Source of the DNA: Albula goreensis
Taxonomy: Eukaryota; Chordata; Actinopteri; Albuliformes; Albulidae
Assembly (NCBI GenBank): GCA_022829145.1
Contig: CM040742.1
Span: forward strand, 46,578,682 to 46,642,681
Direction: 5' to 3'
Length of the DNA stretch: 64,000 nucleotides
The notes beneath the pieces were generated by a model. The model was not told the DNA's origin and ran no database searches. It worked only from the letters and a program-made list of their open reading frames with translations. This document shows, piece by piece, positions 8,126-49,265 of this stretch (the stretch's first letter is position 1; each line of letters starts with the position of its first letter). The translations under genes and the position numbers were made by a program.

Positions 8126-9411
8126 CAGCAATATGCTCCCAAGAGTACAGCGCACTGGACGCAAATGCATTTCACTGGAGTACATTTTCACACAACATTA
8201 ATGCATTCGGAAGGAGTTTGAGTCGTGAGTGGCTTACCATGACATAAATGTGTAGTGTTTGATCTCGGAGTCCAGGGGGGAGCGTTAGAATCTTACCTGC
8301 ATGTCAGGTGAGGTTGGGTGCCTCAGCTTGGCCACTTTTTTCCAAATAGTTTTGGAAAACTGGAAAGCAAAAAGTATTACATTAGGTGTGAAAGGCGGAC
8401 ATGTGGGAGGGGTAAGGGGGTGCCGGAAACGGTGAGCATGAAAGAAGGTTATATATTCTATAGATTACAACTGTATATAACAAGGCCTAGCAGGTAGCGA
8501 TGGCTTTAAGAGATGTTGTCTAAAAATATTTCTCTTGAATCCGAGTTTTAACAAACTCCATTAAATCTGTTTTAACAACACTTGTAATGTCACAGTATCA
8601 GTGGCAGCAATTGTATTAACACCGAGAGTGGAAAAAATGCAGGCTGTAGCACTGGCTTTAGCCAGGTGTATCCACACCAGGAAGAGTTTGAATTTAGCTC
8701 TGATGGACCTGTCTGTCTAATCCAGAGTGCAAGACAAGAGCCAGCTGAGGTTAAATTCTGGTTGTTAAATTCTGAACACGTACACCACACATTGGAAAGG
8801 AAAAAAAAGGCTAAAAGGAAAAGGCTACTTGGCAAATTGACATTTTATAACAGTTTAGGGGCATTAGCAGGAGACCCATAATAAACTGAATTGCGCAATC
8901 ACAAACTCAGATGAAGTCTAAACTATTTCTTATTCATTCAGACTTTCCTCCTTCCTTTTCTTTTTTTATATTCTGATTTCTTTGTGTCCTGGCTACAGAA
9001 AAATGGCTTTTTTTTGCAGCTTTGAGAGCTGTTTTGCTTCACTTGCTAGTCCATTCAATAAAAGATGGGCCTGTAACTGCACAACAATACTTTCTGTGTC
9101 TGTTAATGAATTTACATACAACGTGTGTTCTAGAATGTATGAACAATGCCTGTTCTAGAATCTGAACTTTCTAGTTGAATAGGCACAGTATAATGGAATA
9201 GCTGCCAGGCCTGGTTAGCTAACATGGACACACATTTTACAGAGATTCTTTTGTTTGTTTATTTTTTTCCTGTTGTTTATTAACTGGGAATTTCAGCTGA
9301 GAACAAAATTCCCCTTTGCAGCAAAAGCCCAGTAAGTAAAGGCAGGTAAGGGACCTGGGATTACACCACCAGTCAGACACAGAGGATGATAAGAGAAAGA
9401 CTCGGCTTACT
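8126..9411. other. non-coding DNA
   Basis: Unique sequence of mixed composition. Two overlapping short open frames on opposite strands near 8590-8880 have no recognisable content. No repeat family recognised. Confidence 0.5.
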
Positions 9412-9728
9412 TTGTGGGAATTTAACAAGGACACCAGACTTATTAACCCTGCTCTTCCAAAGGGTGCCTTGGGATTTGTAATGACCACTATAAGTCAGGA
9501 CCTCAGCTCCATCCTGCCTGAAGGACCTTCTACAGCCCAGCACCGAGCAATGGATGGTCTCTTTGCTCCCCTACTGACCCTTCAGCATGTCTATTAGCAG
9601 CAGCTTTGATTTCCCTGAGGGTCCCTTAACTAAGTCCTAACCAAGCCCACACCTGCTTAGCGTCAACTCAGTGACATGAGAAGTGCATAGCATGGTGCAG
9701 CTGCTTAGATTAATTAGTTTTACAGTAG
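9412..9728 (-). repeat. 5S-rRNA-headed SINE remnant (SINE3-like), reverse orientation
   Basis: Read on the minus strand, the segment 9619-9660 matches internal 5S rRNA sequence: CTAAGCAGG, then GGGCTTGGTTAGGACTT, then GGGA(C)CC, in the same order as the 5S internal promoter. The body on the plus strand (TTGGGATTTGTAATGACCAC and AGTCAGGACCTC) is a sequence I know as the companion body of a widespread fish repeat. 5S-headed SINEs are established in zebrafish. The 5S-like head continues into the minisatellite that follows. Confidence 0.7.
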
Positions 9729-10664
9729 AAGGGTACAGGGTGGTGTGGCTGCTTAGCTTCAGCAGTGTGGCAGTAGAGGGTACAGGGTGGTGTGGCTGCT
9801 TAGCATCAGCAGTGTGACAGTAGACGGGTACAGGGTGGTGTGGCTGCTTAGCTTCAGCAGTGTGACAGTAGAAGGGTACAGGGTGGTGTGTGCTTAGCTT
9901 CAGCAGTGTGACAGTAGAAGGGTACAGGGTGGTGTGTGCTTAGCTTCAGCAGTGTGACAGTAGAAGGGTACAGGGTGGTGTGGCTGCTTAGCTTCAGCAG
10001 TGTGGCAGTAGAAGGGTACAGGGTGGTGTGTGCTTAGCTTCAGCAGTGTGACAGTAGAAGGGTACAGGGTGGTGTGTGCTTAGCTTCAGCAGTGTGACAG
10101 TAGAAGGGTAAAGGGTGGTATAGCCGCTTAGCTTCAGCAGTGTGACAGTAGAAGGGTACAGGGTGGTGTGGCTGCTTAGCTTCAGCAGTGTGACAGTAGA
10201 AGGGTACAGGGTGGTATGGCTGCTTAGCTTCAGCAGTGTGGCAGTAGAAGGGTACAGGGTGGTGTGGCTGCTTAGCTTCAGCAGTGTGACAGTAGAAGGT
10301 TACAGGGTGGTGTGGCTGCTTAGCTTCAGCAGTGTGACAGTAGAAGGGTACAGGGTGGTGGGTGATTAGCTTCAGCAGTGTGGCAGTAGAAGGGTACAGG
10401 GAGGTGGGTGATTAGCTTCAGCGGTGTGGCAGTAGAAGGGTACAGGGAGGTGGGTGATTAGCTTCAGCGGTGTGGCAGTAGAAGGGTACAGGGAGGTGGG
10501 TGATTAGCTTCAGCGGTGTGGCAGTAGAAGGGTACAGGGTGGTGGGTGATTAGCTTCAGCGGTGTGGCAGTAGAAGGGTACAGGGTGGTGTGGCTGCTTA
10601 GCTTCAACAGTGTGGCAGTAGAAGGGTACAGGGTGGTGTGGCTGCTTAGCTTCAGCAGTTTGAT
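9729..10664. repeat. 48-bp minisatellite, about 20 units, built from a 5S-like head
   Basis: About 20 tandem units of 45-48 bp share the landmarks GGGTACAGGGTGGTGTGG, CTGCTTAGCTTCAGCAGTG and ACAGTAGAA. On the minus strand each unit contains GCCACACCACCCTGTA, close to the start of 5S rRNA (GCCATACCACCCTGAA). It also contains GAAGCTAAGCAG, the 5S box A core, at nearly the native spacing. Unit variants (GTGTGTGC, GTGGGTGATTAG) are clustered, which indicates local homogenisation. Because 48 is a multiple of three, a 16-residue peptide repeats in frame; I regard that as an artefact. Confidence 0.85.
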
Positions 10665-11305
10665 ATGAGAGTAAATGGATAAGGTTTCTAAAATTGAGCA
10701 CATTTTTGGATATGTTAAAAACAAAATTTGACTGTTGTAATGCAAGCAGCTGTTTAAACGCCACTGGAGAGATCTCTCTCTGTCTTTGCTGGACCTGGGT
10801 GGGCATATTGTGCTGTAGCTGCAGTCAGCTCTACTGACAGAGGGCTCTCTCAGCCAAGAGCAATCCAGAGGACTGCAGCAGCTGGCCTGGGATGCAAGCA
10901 GCACCACTTCAAACCGGATGGCTAATGACGAAGGTTGCACAAGTGCAGTTGTACTGTGTGAGGCCTTCCACTCCAAACTCGCTTTGAGTTACATCTTGAA
11001 TTAACTGCTGGGAATTAACTTTTGGTCTTCAAAGAACACTGCATACTGATTTGGCAGAATTCTTTGTATTCTGAAGTAGTATTTTTACTTTTTTTTTTTT
11101 TCAATCATTCCAATATAAGTTTTACTTTTATATATGAAAGATGCTTTATGAAGGTGCGTTATTATTATAGTGTGAAAAGGTTCAAATGTTCATGGATTCT
11201 GTGCATGGCTTAGTGAATCAGTGAAGCATGTTGGCTGACTGAGGGTATGGACCAGGTCCCAGGGGTGATAAGGGTCAGCCTTTACGTTGACAGCCGCTCT
11301 GGAAT
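10665..11305. other. non-coding DNA
   Basis: Unique sequence after the minisatellite, with a poly-T near 11089-11101. 10770-10970 is somewhat CAG/CTG-rich. No exon or known repeat identified. Confidence 0.45.
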
Positions 11306-34651: not shown

Positions 34652-35345
34652 GGGGCCAAGCACTGTAAGTGCACAGGCACCAATTGTTTTTGTTGGTTTT
34701 ATTTTAATTATTATCCTTCCGCCATGGAAGTCTATGGGAAGTGCCGGAACCATATGGTTACATCTCATGAAATTTGGCACACTGATTTGGGAGGTTTGGG
34801 TATCAACTGAGCTAAATTATTAATCTCCTTCACACTGTTTCTCACAAAAGTTTTTCTTTTTTTTTATTCAAAACCATTGAATATCACTGGATATCATCCT
34901 TCCAATATGGCAGCGAAGATGCCAAAGAGGAAGTAACTAACCTCATCACGCATCGACACATTCGAACCAAACTTTGGGGATGTCATTGGGACTACTTCCT
35001 GAGCTACTGAAAAAAAATGACTCCGTTTCATCACTAGGGGGCGCTATCATAAGAAAATACTGTTTTTGCTCATGGATTTTGATGGAAATGGTTTAGAAAT
35101 TAAATTTATTCAGATTCGTATTCTGTTTGGGTTTGTGGACTTACTTGATGTAGACATGTACTTTTATGTCGAGATTCACAACTGTTCCCAGGTGATCTCA
35201 TACATTTTTCATCTCACCATGTACTCATCCGCCATTTGCATTGTTGAAAATGGCGATTTACCTGCATGTCAATGAAAGATATATGAGATCACCTGGGAAC
35301 AGTTGTGAATCTCGACATAAAAGTACAGATTTCTGCCCAACTGGA
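34652..35345. mobile_element. dispersed non-autonomous element (GGGGCCAAGCAC type)
   Basis: Starts with GGGGCCAAGCACTGTAAGTG, contains GAAATTTGGCACAC near 34770 and CTAGGGGGCGCTATCAT near 35033. I recognise these strings as recurring together in fish genomes as an abundant non-coding repeat. No transposase is encoded. The class (DNA transposon versus other) is not settled by what I see, and the right border is approximate. The palindrome at 35157-35327 lies inside or at its end. Confidence 0.6.
35157..35327. repeat. palindrome with 46-bp perfect arms
   Basis: 35157-35202 and 35282-35327 are exact reverse complements over 46 bp. With two mismatches the pairing extends inward to 35212/35272, leaving a loop of about 59 nt. 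The loop itself holds CGCCATTT/AAAATGGCG near 35230-35257, a smaller hairpin. Perfect arms in otherwise diverged surroundings suggest recent formation or ongoing correction of the arms. Confidence 0.95.
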
Positions 35346-38065: not shown

Positions 38066-39719
38066 GACCTAAAGTGTAGTTGACTGAATCCAGCCTATTT
38101 TTTCCACTTTTGTCAGCAGAGTGCAGGTTGACTGATTCTCTGGTTCAGGAGTGTTGCCACAGACTTACAGACACTGCTAGACTCCGCATCACTGTTCAGA
38201 CAGGCTACAAAGGCTACACATTTATGTCAGTTTTTCCTCTCTTTTTTCTCCTCGCTCAGAGTTACCTGCAGCATGGGATCCGTATGAGTGTGGAAGAAGA
38301 GGCACATTCCTGAGGCCTCTATTAGCCTGCCGCTTGCACTGCCTTTCTCGTGAAGCCGCTGTGAGATGCGAGACGACACAATCCTCAGAGGGAATTCCCG
38401 TCTCTGCAGAGGACCCTTGCAACATCACGTCCCGCTATTACCTTATTCCCATCAGACGCGCCTCAGGAGACTTCTCCCTGTCTGTCCACCTCAGTTTCAT
38501 ACCTCAGTAAAGGCAACTTGCACCTCCTTCAAACTTCTTTCATTCTCTTTCAAGATTGGCCATGGTAGATTTTTTTTCTTCCCTGTGACGTTCCAGTGAA
38601 GGTTAAAGCTGTTCCATGACAGCTGCAGCATGAGATTCTCGCCTCTCTTGCGTTTTTATTTATATATTTTTATATATATTTGTAATAGACATTCGTTGTT
38701 TATTAGGCAATAGCATTGTTGGCACCCCAGGCATCTTTTTATGCTCCTATTAGCTCAGAGGATCAGAGGAGCACTCTCCAGTCTGGTTGATTAAAATGCC
38801 AAGAGACACAGTGAAATGCAATCTCATCCATTTCCTTTCCCCAGACACCCGGCTCATGACTTAAAAACACGCTGGGATGCAAATTCACTGTGTATTCGAT
38901 TCTCTCCACAGCCCTCTTAAGAAAGATATAGATTATTTAATAAAATGCAATATGCATACTTCTGTGTCTTAGAAAGCAATTTAAAATGTTTTCTACCATG
39001 CGCACCGCTGTAATACGTCAAAGTGGCCTGCACTAGGCTCTGTGTATTTAATAAGTAAATAACAAAGTTGGCATCTAAGCACAACATGTTTCAGTCAAGT
39101 GCAAGGAATGTTAACATGTGGTGTAATTGAACACGAATACACATTCTTTCAGATGCATATTCTCACTCTGTCATGAAGGTGTATCAGTCATGTTGGATTT
39201 TAGGTCATCCCAGTCACTGTCTTTCAATGCAGGCTGAGAACTTCACCTGAAACCCATTGGAGGCCTGTCATCACATGGTCTTGAGTTTCTGGTATGTTTT
39301 ATTGAATATTAGTGGTGATATCTATGGGTTTCACCATTGCGCAGTGATGCAGCTTATGTACTTGCTGGTCTTAGCTCAGGTTTGGAAGCATTGCTCATAT
39401 ATCACGCCTGTTATGTGTGTTAAACTGGGGACTTACAGAGCAATCTGTGCAGCTTGAGCCTTTAAAACCTGAGGAGCTGAAGAGTGCTCCAGTAACATCA
39501 GTGCTTCATTGCTCAGCCAACTGCACTGTAAAAATATGCCAGAGCAAATATAACAGTGGTTTGCAAACCCAAACCTTGTGGGCTGAGGTGTGTGTCAGTT
39601 TTTTGGCGTGTTTTAGCACTTTAAGTACTCCTTAACGTAAGTGAATTTACGTAAGATTTCACACAACTTGTTCCCAAGGCCTAAACTGGCAGCTGACTGA
39701 AAGGAGACCGCAAATATTT
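38066..39719. other. non-coding DNA
   Basis: 38080-38480 is GC-richer, with open frames on both strands and no domain. 38640-38690 is a TATATTT-rich run. The rest is unique. No gene supported. Confidence 0.4.
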
Positions 39720-39975
39720 GCAGGCACAGTGGTCCTGCATGACTTAAGTTAAACCTGCAGACACTGTGGACCTCCAGGTCTGGAGTTAAACCTGCAGACA
39801 CTGGCCCTCCAGCACTGGAGTTACACCTCCAGGAGGACTGGAGTTAAACCTGCAGACACTACGGCCCTCCAGGACTGGAGTTACACACTGCGGCCCTCCA
39901 GGACTAAAATGCAGACACTGCGGCCCTCCAGGACTGGAGGACAATGACTGGCCTTACAGCACTAGAGTTACACCT
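39720..39975. repeat. irregular minisatellite, unit about 37 bp
   Basis: Six or seven imperfect units share GTTAAACCTGCAGACACTG, CGGCCCTCCAG and GACTGGAGTTA. Internal deletions give units of about 23-40 bp. CCTCCAGGACTGGAG is itself a partial palindrome that recurs in many fish repeats. Confidence 0.85.
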
Positions 39976-46015: not shown

Positions 46016-46429
46016 TTAGTAGAGCAGAAGGAAGAACAGGTTACAGGAAGTGCCAAAGTGTGTGCAGGGGATTGGGACAGACCGAGGAAGTCCGACAGAA
46101 GGGAAAGAGTCTGTAGTGCTCAGGGGTAGTGAAGATAGAGGGAGACTATAGAAAGTGAAGAAAATGTGTTGGAGTTGGCACTGGAAAGATGAAGAAAATA
46201 GGATAGAAAAATTTCAGTATTCCAAAAGTTGAACTTGGGTTGGGTGAAGTAGCCAGCATGCAAAAAAAATCAAGGAATGATATACATAAATTACATTAAG
46301 AAATAAAGACAAAATGAGAAAAATTTCCAAAATCATTCACATGCATTAATTACATAGAACATATGTAAATTGCATACATGAATGAAGACCAGAACACGCT
46401 AAAATGCAAATTAGAAAATTGAATTAAAC
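46016..46429. other. purine-biased to AT-rich spacer
   Basis: 46016-46200 is GA-rich and loosely similar in texture to the array but without clear units. 46200-46430 is AT-rich. Confidence 0.45.
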
Positions 46430-49265
46430 AGAGAGGGAAGAGAAAGTATGGTGTTACAGTTAGGGCAGATGAAAGGGTACTACAGAGAGGGAAGAGAGAG
46501 TATGAAGGTGTTACAGTTAGGGCAGATGAAAGGGTACTACAGAGAGGGAAGAGAGAGTATGAAGGTGTTACAGTTAGGGCAGATGAAAGGGTACTACAGA
46601 GAGGGAAGAGAGAGTATGAAGGTGTTACAGTTAGGGCAGATGAAAGGGTACTACAGAGAGGGAAGAGAGAGTATGAAGGTGTTACAGATAGGGAGATGAT
46701 GAAAAGGATGAAAGGGTAGAGAGAAGAGAGAGTATGAAGGTGTTACAGTTAGGGCAGATGAAAGGGTACTACAGAGAGGGAAGAGAGAGTATGAAGGTGT
46801 TACAGTTAGGGCAGATGAAAGGGTACTACAGAGAGGAAGAGAGAGTATGAAGGTGTTACAGTTAGGGCAGATGAAAGGGTACTACAGAGAGGGAAGAGAG
46901 AGTATGAAGGTGTTACAGTTAGGGCAGATGAAGAGGGTACTACAGAGAGGGAGAGAGAGAGTATGAAGGTGTTACAGTTAGGGCAGATGAAAGTAGGGTA
47001 CTACAGAGAGGGAAGAGAGAGTATGAAGGTGTTACAGTTAGGGCAGATGAAAGGGTACTACAGAGAGGGAGAGAGAGTATGAAGGTGTTACAGTTATGGC
47101 AGATGAAAGGGTACTACAGAGAGGAAGAAGAGAGTATGGTGTTACAGTTAGGGCAGATGAAAGGGTACTACAGAGAGGGAAGAAGAGAGAGTATGGTGTT
47201 ACAGTTAGGGCAGATGAAAGGGTACTACAGAGAGGAAGAGAGAGTATGAAGGTGTTACAGTTAGGGCAGATGAAAGGGTACTACAGTTAGGGCAGATGAA
47301 AGGGTACTACAGAGAGGGAAGAGAGAGTATGAAGGTGTTACAGTTAGGGCAGATGAAAGGGTACTACAGAGAGGGAAGAGAGAGTATGAAGGTGTTACAG
47401 TTATGGCAGATGATAGGGTACTACAGAGAGGGAAGAGAGAGTATGAAGGTGTTACAGTTAGGGCAGATGAAAGGGTACTACAGAGAGGGAAGAGAGATGA
47501 AGTGTTACAGATGAAAGAGAGAGGGAAGAGAGAGTATGAAAGGGTACTACAGAGAGGAAGAGTGTATGAAGTGTTACAGTTAGGGCAGATGAAAGGGCAG
47601 ATACTACAGAGAGGGAAGAGAGAGTATGAAGGTGTTACAGTTAGGGCAGATGAAAGGGTACTACAGAGAGGGAAGAAGAGTATGAAGGTGTTACAGTTAG
47701 GGCAGATGAAAGGGTACAACAGAGAGGGAAGAGAGAGTATGGTGTTACAGTGTGTACAGTTAGGGCAGATGAAAGGGTAACAGAGAGGGAAGAGAGAGTA
47801 TGAAGGTGTTACAGTTAGGGCAGATGAAAGAATACTACAGAGAGGAAGAGAGAGTATGAAGGTGTTACAGTTAGGATGAAAGGGTACTACAGAGAGGGAA
47901 GAAGATATGAAGGTGTTACAGTTAGGGCAGATGAAAGGGTACTACAGAGAGGGAAGAGAGAGTATGAAGGTGTTACAGTTAGGGCAGATGAAAGGGTACT
48001 ACAGAGAGGGAAGAGAGAGTATGAAGGTGTTACAGTTAGGGCAGATGAAAGGGTACTACAGAGAGGGAAGAGAGAGTATGAAGGTGTTACAGTTAGGGCA
48101 GATGAAAGGGTACTACAGAGAGGGAAGAGAGAGTATGAAGGTGTTACAGTTAGGGCAGATGAAAGGGTACTACAGAGAGGAAGAGAGAGTATGAAGGTGT
48201 TACAGTTAGGGCAGATGAAAGGGTACTACAGAGAGGGAAAGAGAGAATGAAGGTGTTACAGTTAGGGCAGATGAAAGGAAAGGGTACTACAGAGAGGAAG
48301 AGAGAGTATGAAGGTGTTACAGTTAGGGCAGATGAAAGGGTACTACAGAGAGGGAAAGAGAGAGTATGAAGGTGTTACAGTTAGGGCAGATGAAAGGGTA
48401 CTACAGAGAGGAAGAGAGAGTATGAAGGTGTTACAGTTAGGGCAGATGAAATGAAGGTACTACAGAGAGGACTACAGAGAAAGAGAGTATGAAGGTGTTA
48501 CAGTTAGGGCAGATGAAAGGGTACTACAGAGAGGGAGAAGAGAGTATGAAGGTGTTACAGTTAGGGCAGATGAAAGGGTACTACAGAGAGGAAGAAGACA
48601 GTTAGATGAAAGCAGATGAAGGGTAGTTAGGGCTACAGATGAGGGTAGGGAAGAGAGAGTATGAAGGTGTTACAGTTAGGAAAGGGTACTACAGAGAGGT
48701 GTTACAAGAGAGAAAGGTATGAAGGTATGTTACAGTTAGGGGTACTAGATGAAAGAGGTACTTACAGAGAGGGAAGAGAGTATGAAGGTGTTACAGTTAG
48801 GGCAGATGAAAGGGTACTACAGAGAGGAAGAGAGAGTATGAAGGTGTTACAGTTATGGCAGATGAAAAGAATTACTACAGAAGAAGAGAGTATGAAGGTG
48901 TTACAGTTAGGGCAGATGAAAGAGAGTACTACAGAGAGGAAAAGAGAGTATGAAGGTGTTACAGTTAGGGCAGATGAAAGGGTACTACAGAGAGGGAAGA
49001 GAGAGTATGAAGGTGTTACAGTTAGGGCAGATGAAAGGGTACTACAGAGAGGGAAGAGAGAGTATGAAGGTGTTACAGTTAGGGCAGATGAAAGGGTACT
49101 ACAGAGAGGGAAGAGAGTATGAAGGTGTTACAGTTAGGGCAGATGAAAGGGTACTACAGAGAGGGAAGAGAGAGTATGTTACAGTTAGGGCAGATGATAG
49201 GGTACTACAGAGAGGGAAGAGAGAGTATGAAGGTGTTACAGTTAGGGCAGATGAAAGGGTACTAT
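46430..49265. repeat. 57-bp minisatellite, about 50 units
   Basis: A 2.8-kb array of a 57-bp unit carrying GGTGTTACAGTTAGGGCAG, ATGAAAGGGTACTACAGAG and AGGGAAGAGAGAGTATGAA. The first four units (to about 46680) and the block 47910-48170 are essentially identical. Many others differ by one to a few bases in the GA-rich end (GAGGAAGAG for GAGGGAAGAG). Scrambled segments lie at 46689-46730, 47500-47600 and 48590-48780. The plus strand is purine-rich. Unit length 3x19 keeps periodic open frames of a 19-residue peptide on both strands. Indels break these frames between identical blocks, which argues against coding. Confidence 0.96.

Follow-up and report, generated by a model that had tools for sequence, protein, structure and literature searches.

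The window, the whole 64,000-nt stretch of DNA that was analysed (C2:46578682-46642681), belongs to a 932-Mb assembly of 208 contigs and holds, 3.6 Mb from the contig end, a minisatellite array that runs directly into a decayed 5S-headed SINE. TRF delimited the 48-bp array at 9693-10663 (20.6 copies, 94% matches), and an in-phase alignment on the minus strand stretches it beyond these bounds to 9654-10670, giving 21 units of about 48 bp and a partial unit. Read on the minus strand, the unit is GCCACACCACCCTGTA...GAAGCTAAGCA. The features of the locus are the following.

9240..9273, minus strand: A-rich stretch taken, by eye only, as the SINE 3' end
9274..9653, minus strand: body of the SINE with its LINE-like tail (E = 6e-47 in an nhmmer search with a hand-typed consensus of the body)
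9592..9708, minus strand: decayed 5S-like head of the SINE, spanning the whole 5S model (Rfam RF00001, 17.8 bits against a gathering score of 38)
9611..9664, minus strand: sole box A - IE - box C stretch of the locus (5S +48 to +101), decayed, 74% to human 5S (blastn, nhmmer, alignment)
9654..9701, minus strand: last in-phase unit, which is the SINE's own 5S-like head, 34/48 (in-phase alignment; shuffle-tested score)
9702..10670, minus strand: minisatellite array, 20 units of 46-48 bp and a partial unit (in-phase alignment; TRF)
10363..10594, minus strand: five neighbouring units with an altered box A (AATCA), a local sub-type (in-phase alignment)

Matches to the unit consensus range from 41/46 to 48/48 in 19 of the units; the unit at 9749-9702 matches at 42/48 and the partial unit, at the 5' (high-coordinate) edge, at 24/28. 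Among the 19 well-matched units, AATCA replaces AAGCA in five, and the AAGC core of box A is kept in 14.

To align the locus to 5S rRNA we used a hand-typed human reference. The unit aligned to positions +8 to +59 with a score of 50 and is 3 nt shorter owing to a 3-nt deletion; the best of 1500 dinucleotide shuffles, each taken at its best rotation, reached 35. Against the local SINE head the unit scored 56 (best of 1500 shuffles, 43), and the left flank scored 41 against 5S +48 to +102 (best of 2000 shuffles, 29). Plain local alignment of the unit pair alone to 5S is less striking, its score of 24 being reached by 3 of 2000 shuffles. The initial annotation, made from the letters of the window, had read the unit on the minus strand as the start of 5S rRNA with box A and had proposed aligning both the unit and the left flank to 5S; both alignments score above all shuffles and bear this reading out. 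Its remark that box C is missing from the unit also holds, since the unit ends at about +59 of 5S.

The last in-phase unit (9701-9654) continues into GTGTGGGCTTGGTTAGGACTTAGTTAAGGGACC, which is the stretch aligning to 5S +48 to +102, and an nhmmer search of the whole window with 5S gave E = 6e-5 at 9665-9608 on the minus strand. The Rfam 5S_rRNA match at 9708-9592 had an E-value of 1.4 over 4227 families, 5S_rRNA was absent among the 17 matches of the Rfam whole-window scan (E up to 10), and nothing in the window reached its gathering score. The match, below the gathering score and missing from the whole-window list, is therefore to a decayed 5S-like head and not to a 5S gene. The body at 9274..9653 is 0.751 identical to the hand-typed consensus over 377 columns, and the tail is presumably of LINE-like origin. 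Within 9611..9664, box A, IE and box C were placed where we take them to lie in 5S. A target-site duplication at this SINE was sought, with nothing found beyond the 8-mer AAAATGTG, which we do not count as evidence. On these alignments the last in-phase unit (9654-9701) is the head of a decayed 5S-headed SINE that runs to about 9274. The 5S-like SINE that had been annotated beside the array is thus present as an adjoining head and body, recognisable to about 9274 and not, as had been supposed, to 9412. Units and SINE have the same orientation, both on the minus strand. Two kinds of Rfam match were rejected as below the gathering score, namely RF02177 lncRNA matches to the array and a mir-7957 precursor match at 9252-9309 on the plus strand, across the SINE tail. 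ARAGORN found no tRNA. Pattern scans for the body, the unit, the tail and 5S in a viral contig collection, and for the SINE body in a genome contig collection, gave no match.

Vertebrate SINE3 elements have a tail derived from a CR1-clade LINE. The SINE in the window and its relatives fit the general plan of SINE3, the 5S-headed SINEs, in which, as described in the accessible text of two accounts, box A, IE and box C are followed by a body and a tail (PMC7245038, PMC10886601). Of 289 candidates, 40 scored ones matched the L031 body, revealing an interspersed family with head, body and tail, and a pattern for the 5' end was found at 17 places, some of them inside arrays (control, 0). Interior copies start with GCCAGCAGCCATACCACCCTG and pass through one head into GGTGTGGGCTTGG. 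All 15 copies matching the ancestral head-body pattern, 13 of which were examined with about 150 bp of upstream sequence, carry one complete head. The family thus has a 5S-derived head and interspersed single-head copies, the head at the window locus being decayed. The initial annotation had left its idea of a birth from a 5S-headed SINE to be judged by whether the adjoining body belongs to a family with a 5S head; it does in 15 of 15 copies, and with the in-phase SINE head (34/48) and the body that adjoins it this origin is well supported. In one single-headed SINE, L041, the sequence behind the head is partly present a second time.

The 5' end of this SINE contains a short direct repeat. We examined 41 stretches, 18 of which have a recognisable 5' end and 12 of which could be measured. 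The spacing between the AGCAG-like repeats is 48 bp in 10 of these 12 copies, 45 in one and 49 in one, with both repeats exactly AGCAG in nine; a looser rule added three further copies with spacings of 48, 47 and 56. The spacing of most copies is therefore the period of the array. The canonical 5' end as we typed it has three 5-mer direct repeats within 89 nt, AGCAG at 48 among them, and the AGCAG repeat is absent from human 5S. Copies with intermediate numbers of heads also exist: L083, an interior C2 copy, combines two heads with a body, L078 is made up of about five units, and in L082, with its nine uneven units, no unit has the full derived motif.

Looking for the same expansion at other loci, as had been suggested, showed that the array is no odd single locus but a member of a genome-wide family. 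The exact 27-mer across the unit junction has 649 copies in the same genome (reversed control, 0) and the junction 28-mer with the ancestral T has 147 (control, 0). Clustered by hand from the listed matches, they fall at 68 places at least, on 18 contigs; these are places of head-to-head junctions and not 68 long arrays, as one of them (L081) holds scarcely more than one unit. The matches to the 28-mer run in contig order past C12, so that counts for C1-C12 are complete. There, 27 of 34 places are within 5 Mb of a contig end (uniform expectation 0.221, P = 2e-12) and 33 within 8 Mb, the other being 11.9 Mb inside; for the 27-mer on C1-C3 the count within 5 Mb is 13 of 14. Single-head copies, in which an ancestral head leads into the body, lie within 5 Mb in only 3 of 15 cases as against 27 of 34 array places (P = 2e-4). 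The 48-bp unit family is biased to contig ends, which we infer to be chromosome ends, and in this it shows a subtelomeric preference.

SINE body copies were counted in the same way. Within 5 Mb of an end lie 12 of 30, or 19 of 39 when copies on contigs of unknown extent are included, and leaving out these nine favours the reading of an end bias. Arrays are near ends in 43 of 49 cases versus 19 of 39 SINE body copies (P = 1e-4), or versus 15 of 35 if five neighbouring copies on C17 are counted once (P = 3e-5). SINE copies are thus themselves fairly frequent near ends (12/30 or 19/39), and this counts against the explanation that we prefer below. The five C17 body matches fall within about 110 kb (C17:3693562-3800216), denser than elsewhere in the list.

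We compared 29 arrays, including that in the window, of about 3 to 53 units each. No pair of 700-bp upstream flanks aligned over more than 100 bp at E 1e-5, and five pairs of downstream flanks did so, all between loci taken as bearing a SINE. At p < 0.003, 13 of the 29 arrays are followed immediately downstream by a SINE remnant on the same strand, as against 0 of 29 in the mirror control; with a looser cut the counts are 14 versus 2, and nhmmer with the body alone detects a SINE at 10 of the 29. At these 13 arrays, that of the window among them, a longer terminal unit continues into the SINE. At the p < 0.003 cut, no downstream SINE was found at the other 16, so that some arrays may have moved or arisen otherwise.

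The register of the units is identical at the loci examined, and the majority unit is within one substitution of the common unit at 28 of 29 loci, one of which (L021) additionally has a 2-bp deletion. L020 differs from the common unit in ten columns, and its units average 0.777 to it. The initial array bounds favour phase 0 by construction and were excluded from the tests of phase. Support from the 5' phase for a birth at the SINE start depends on the scoring: two stricter scorings place 13 and 14 of the 29 5' ends in an 11-column window at the SINE start (P = 0.0075 and 0.0024), and a lenient boundary alignment, which ran into the flanks, shows no excess there (6 to 8 of 29, P 0.47 to 0.86). 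The 3' phase is concentrated under all three scorings (14 to 19 of 29 lenient, 13 of 29 stricter), with one group of ends at GCTAAGCAG and a second cluster near unit columns 13-23 (11 of 29). This second cluster is not predicted by our preferred explanation.

The units are far more alike between loci than the SINE bodies beside them. We compared 484 inner units of 27 arrays, excluding L020 and the four-unit L019 and dropping the first and last complete units. Their similarity is 0.955 within loci and 0.949 from one locus to another. The SINE bodies beside ten arrays are 0.680 alike pairwise, a value taken from 20 of the 45 pairs, as 25 had fewer than 150 aligned columns and were excluded, and 0.72 to 0.86 alike to a hand-made consensus. 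What is more, 21 unit sequences recur at more than one locus and account for 332 of 566 complete units; 19 of these 21 are present on two or more chromosomes. Inner units are closer to the consensus (0.974) than first (0.899) or last (0.926) units, and the ancestral states of CTCATGTCAAACTG persist in several of these outermost units. Homogenisation within loci cannot keep loci alike as their flanks diverge. The values of 0.949 for units and 0.680 for bodies therefore point to exchange between loci as the simplest reading.

These observations allow us to propose how the array came about. It is most probably a SINE-derived minisatellite that began with slippage at AGCAG, lengthened, and spread near contig ends by exchange, a reading in which we have good though not full confidence. 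A 5S-headed SINE of SINE3 type would have inserted long ago in minus-strand orientation. Misalignment between the AGCAG at its 5' end and the AGCAG in box A, 48 bp on, would duplicate the intervening 48 bp, and once two or more heads were present, slippage or unequal exchange could extend the run. A variant with CTACTGTCACACTG in place of CTCATGTCAAACTG would then pass between arrays near contig ends, through gene conversion or some other ectopic exchange, and displace the inner units while ancestral-like ones persisted at some edges. The repeat spacing that matches the array period, the intermediates and the distinct unit types together suggest slippage at AGCAG as the first step. It is not unusual to find a 5-bp repeat at a given spacing, and the common register could come from one early two-headed copy; such a copy would explain the register but not the position bias or the diverged bodies. 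More generally, the head of a retroposon with a short repeat may be a recurrent seed of minisatellites, expanding near ends in the 48-bp register and then evolving jointly through exchange among subtelomeres; we consider the chances of this wider reading to be about even. If it is true, the family would gauge the exchange of DNA among subtelomeres.

Other origins account for parts of the same data. A multi-head SINE subfamily could have retrotransposed to many sites, so that arrays already had two or more heads on insertion and lengthened later. Such a subfamily would explain the identical register, the interior C2 copy L083 with its two heads and body, and the longer terminal unit on the SINE side at 13 of 29 arrays. 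However, bodies at 0.680 against units at 0.949 between loci are too diverged for recent joint insertion, and the contrast in location between multi-head places (27 of 34 near ends) and single-head copies (3 of 15) also argues against it; we regard it as rather improbable. The 16 arrays without a SINE at the cut used, the 3' ends at several phases and the near-identical units on many chromosomes would be expected of a mobile 48-bp satellite (excised circles, repair filler or chromosome-end recombination) that lands in SINE heads through homology and also in unrelated sequence. Yet this would still require the same initial birth from a SINE, SINE remnants occur only on the predicted side and strand, and under the stricter scorings 13 or 14 of the 29 5' ends cluster at the SINE start. 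Such a satellite is an unlikely but not far-fetched source of the arrays.

That an unrelated minisatellite with a chance resemblance to 5S happens to lie beside a SINE has next to no probability. The weak Rfam match, absent from the whole-window list, would be in keeping with chance, but none of 1500 and none of 2000 shuffles reach the observed 5S scores, the same arrangement recurs at 13 of 29 arrays and at none in the mirror control, and the same head is found in single-head copies. The initial annotation had further described the array as about 20 tandem copies of a partial pol III promoter. The copy number is right, with 21 in-phase units and a partial one, but the promoter reading does not follow. 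That the minus strand carries a series of partial type-1 promoters might be suspected from the AAGC core of box A in 14 of 19 well-matched units and from the one decayed full control region that follows the array. A type-1 promoter has box A, IE and box C, whereas each unit aligns to 5S +8 to +59 only, lacks IE and box C and ends inside box A, which is truncated and in five of 19 units altered. The one box C of the locus is decayed, and slippage and exchange would account for the array without any promoter function. Judged from the letters of the units, a promoter role is unlikely, and a row of such promoters very improbable.

Judging by the types of repeat, the host is probably a fish. Fish tandem repeats with 5S sequence are known from Hoplias, where 5SHindIII derives from 5S genes and spacers; the source of the 48-bp unit, in contrast, would be the head of a retroposon. 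The closest parallel is found in squamates, where tandem units, the sSats, derive from part of a SINE, the sources being the tRNA-headed Squam1-3; in its accessible part, that account does not settle whether animals other than squamates have sSats (PMC10702118). As far as that text goes, the two systems have much in common. The 48-bp unit too is homologous to part of a SINE (score 56 versus 43 for shuffles, with the last unit in phase), and the terminal unit, often longer, continues into the SINE (PMC10702118). Subtelomeric preference, sub-variants within a locus, low-copy early stages and a mean similarity of units above that of the SINE itself are also common to both (PMC10702118). Unlike sSats as described there, the unit comes from a 5S head, of which it takes only the 5' 48 bp, and its period is matched by a short repeat at its borders (PMC10702118). 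With a 5S-derived head in place of Squam1, Squam2 or Squam3, the 48-bp family is sSat-like and stands outside the described sSats. Minisatellites derived from Alu and B1, with expanded VNTRs listed, were likewise seeded within a SINE copy, but those heads are 7SL-derived, and a unit common to arrays on many chromosomes is not described in the accessible text (PMC9659126). Nor do the SINE3 accounts, in their accessible parts, describe a head multiplied in tandem as it is here (PMC7245038, PMC10886601). A literature search, with most subscription journals outside its reach, found no minisatellite from a 5S-headed SINE, and a literal sequence search of the literature returned no title on this SINE.

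Transposable elements are often named as the origin of satellites, but it is rare to see both the initial step and the subsequent spread. In this genome, copies with one head, two, about five and nine uneven heads are found together with long uniform arrays, and the host SINEs serve as an internal clock for the units. An ordinary mobile element would thus be able to seed a whole family of tandem repeats, and SINE-derived satellites, described from tRNA-headed SINEs in squamates, would also arise from a 5S-headed SINE in a different animal. Two questions become testable: what makes minisatellites gather near the ends of chromosomes, and how frequently these ends exchange sequence.

The window contains other repeats. 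A larger second minisatellite with a 57-bp unit lies at 46428-49264 (TRF rows of 15.1 and 34.5 copies), and 39719-39939 is a compound tandem repeat whose periods, of about 29 to 59 bp, overlap. The UnaL2 LINE 3' element has seven matches (starts at 1751, 13253, 23746, 25122, 26266, 28319 and 63902), all seven on the plus strand and below the gathering score, some of which overlap dispersed repeats. An inverted repeat at 35157-35327, with 56-nt arms 96% complementary and 59 nt between them, resembles a small foldback element or MITE.
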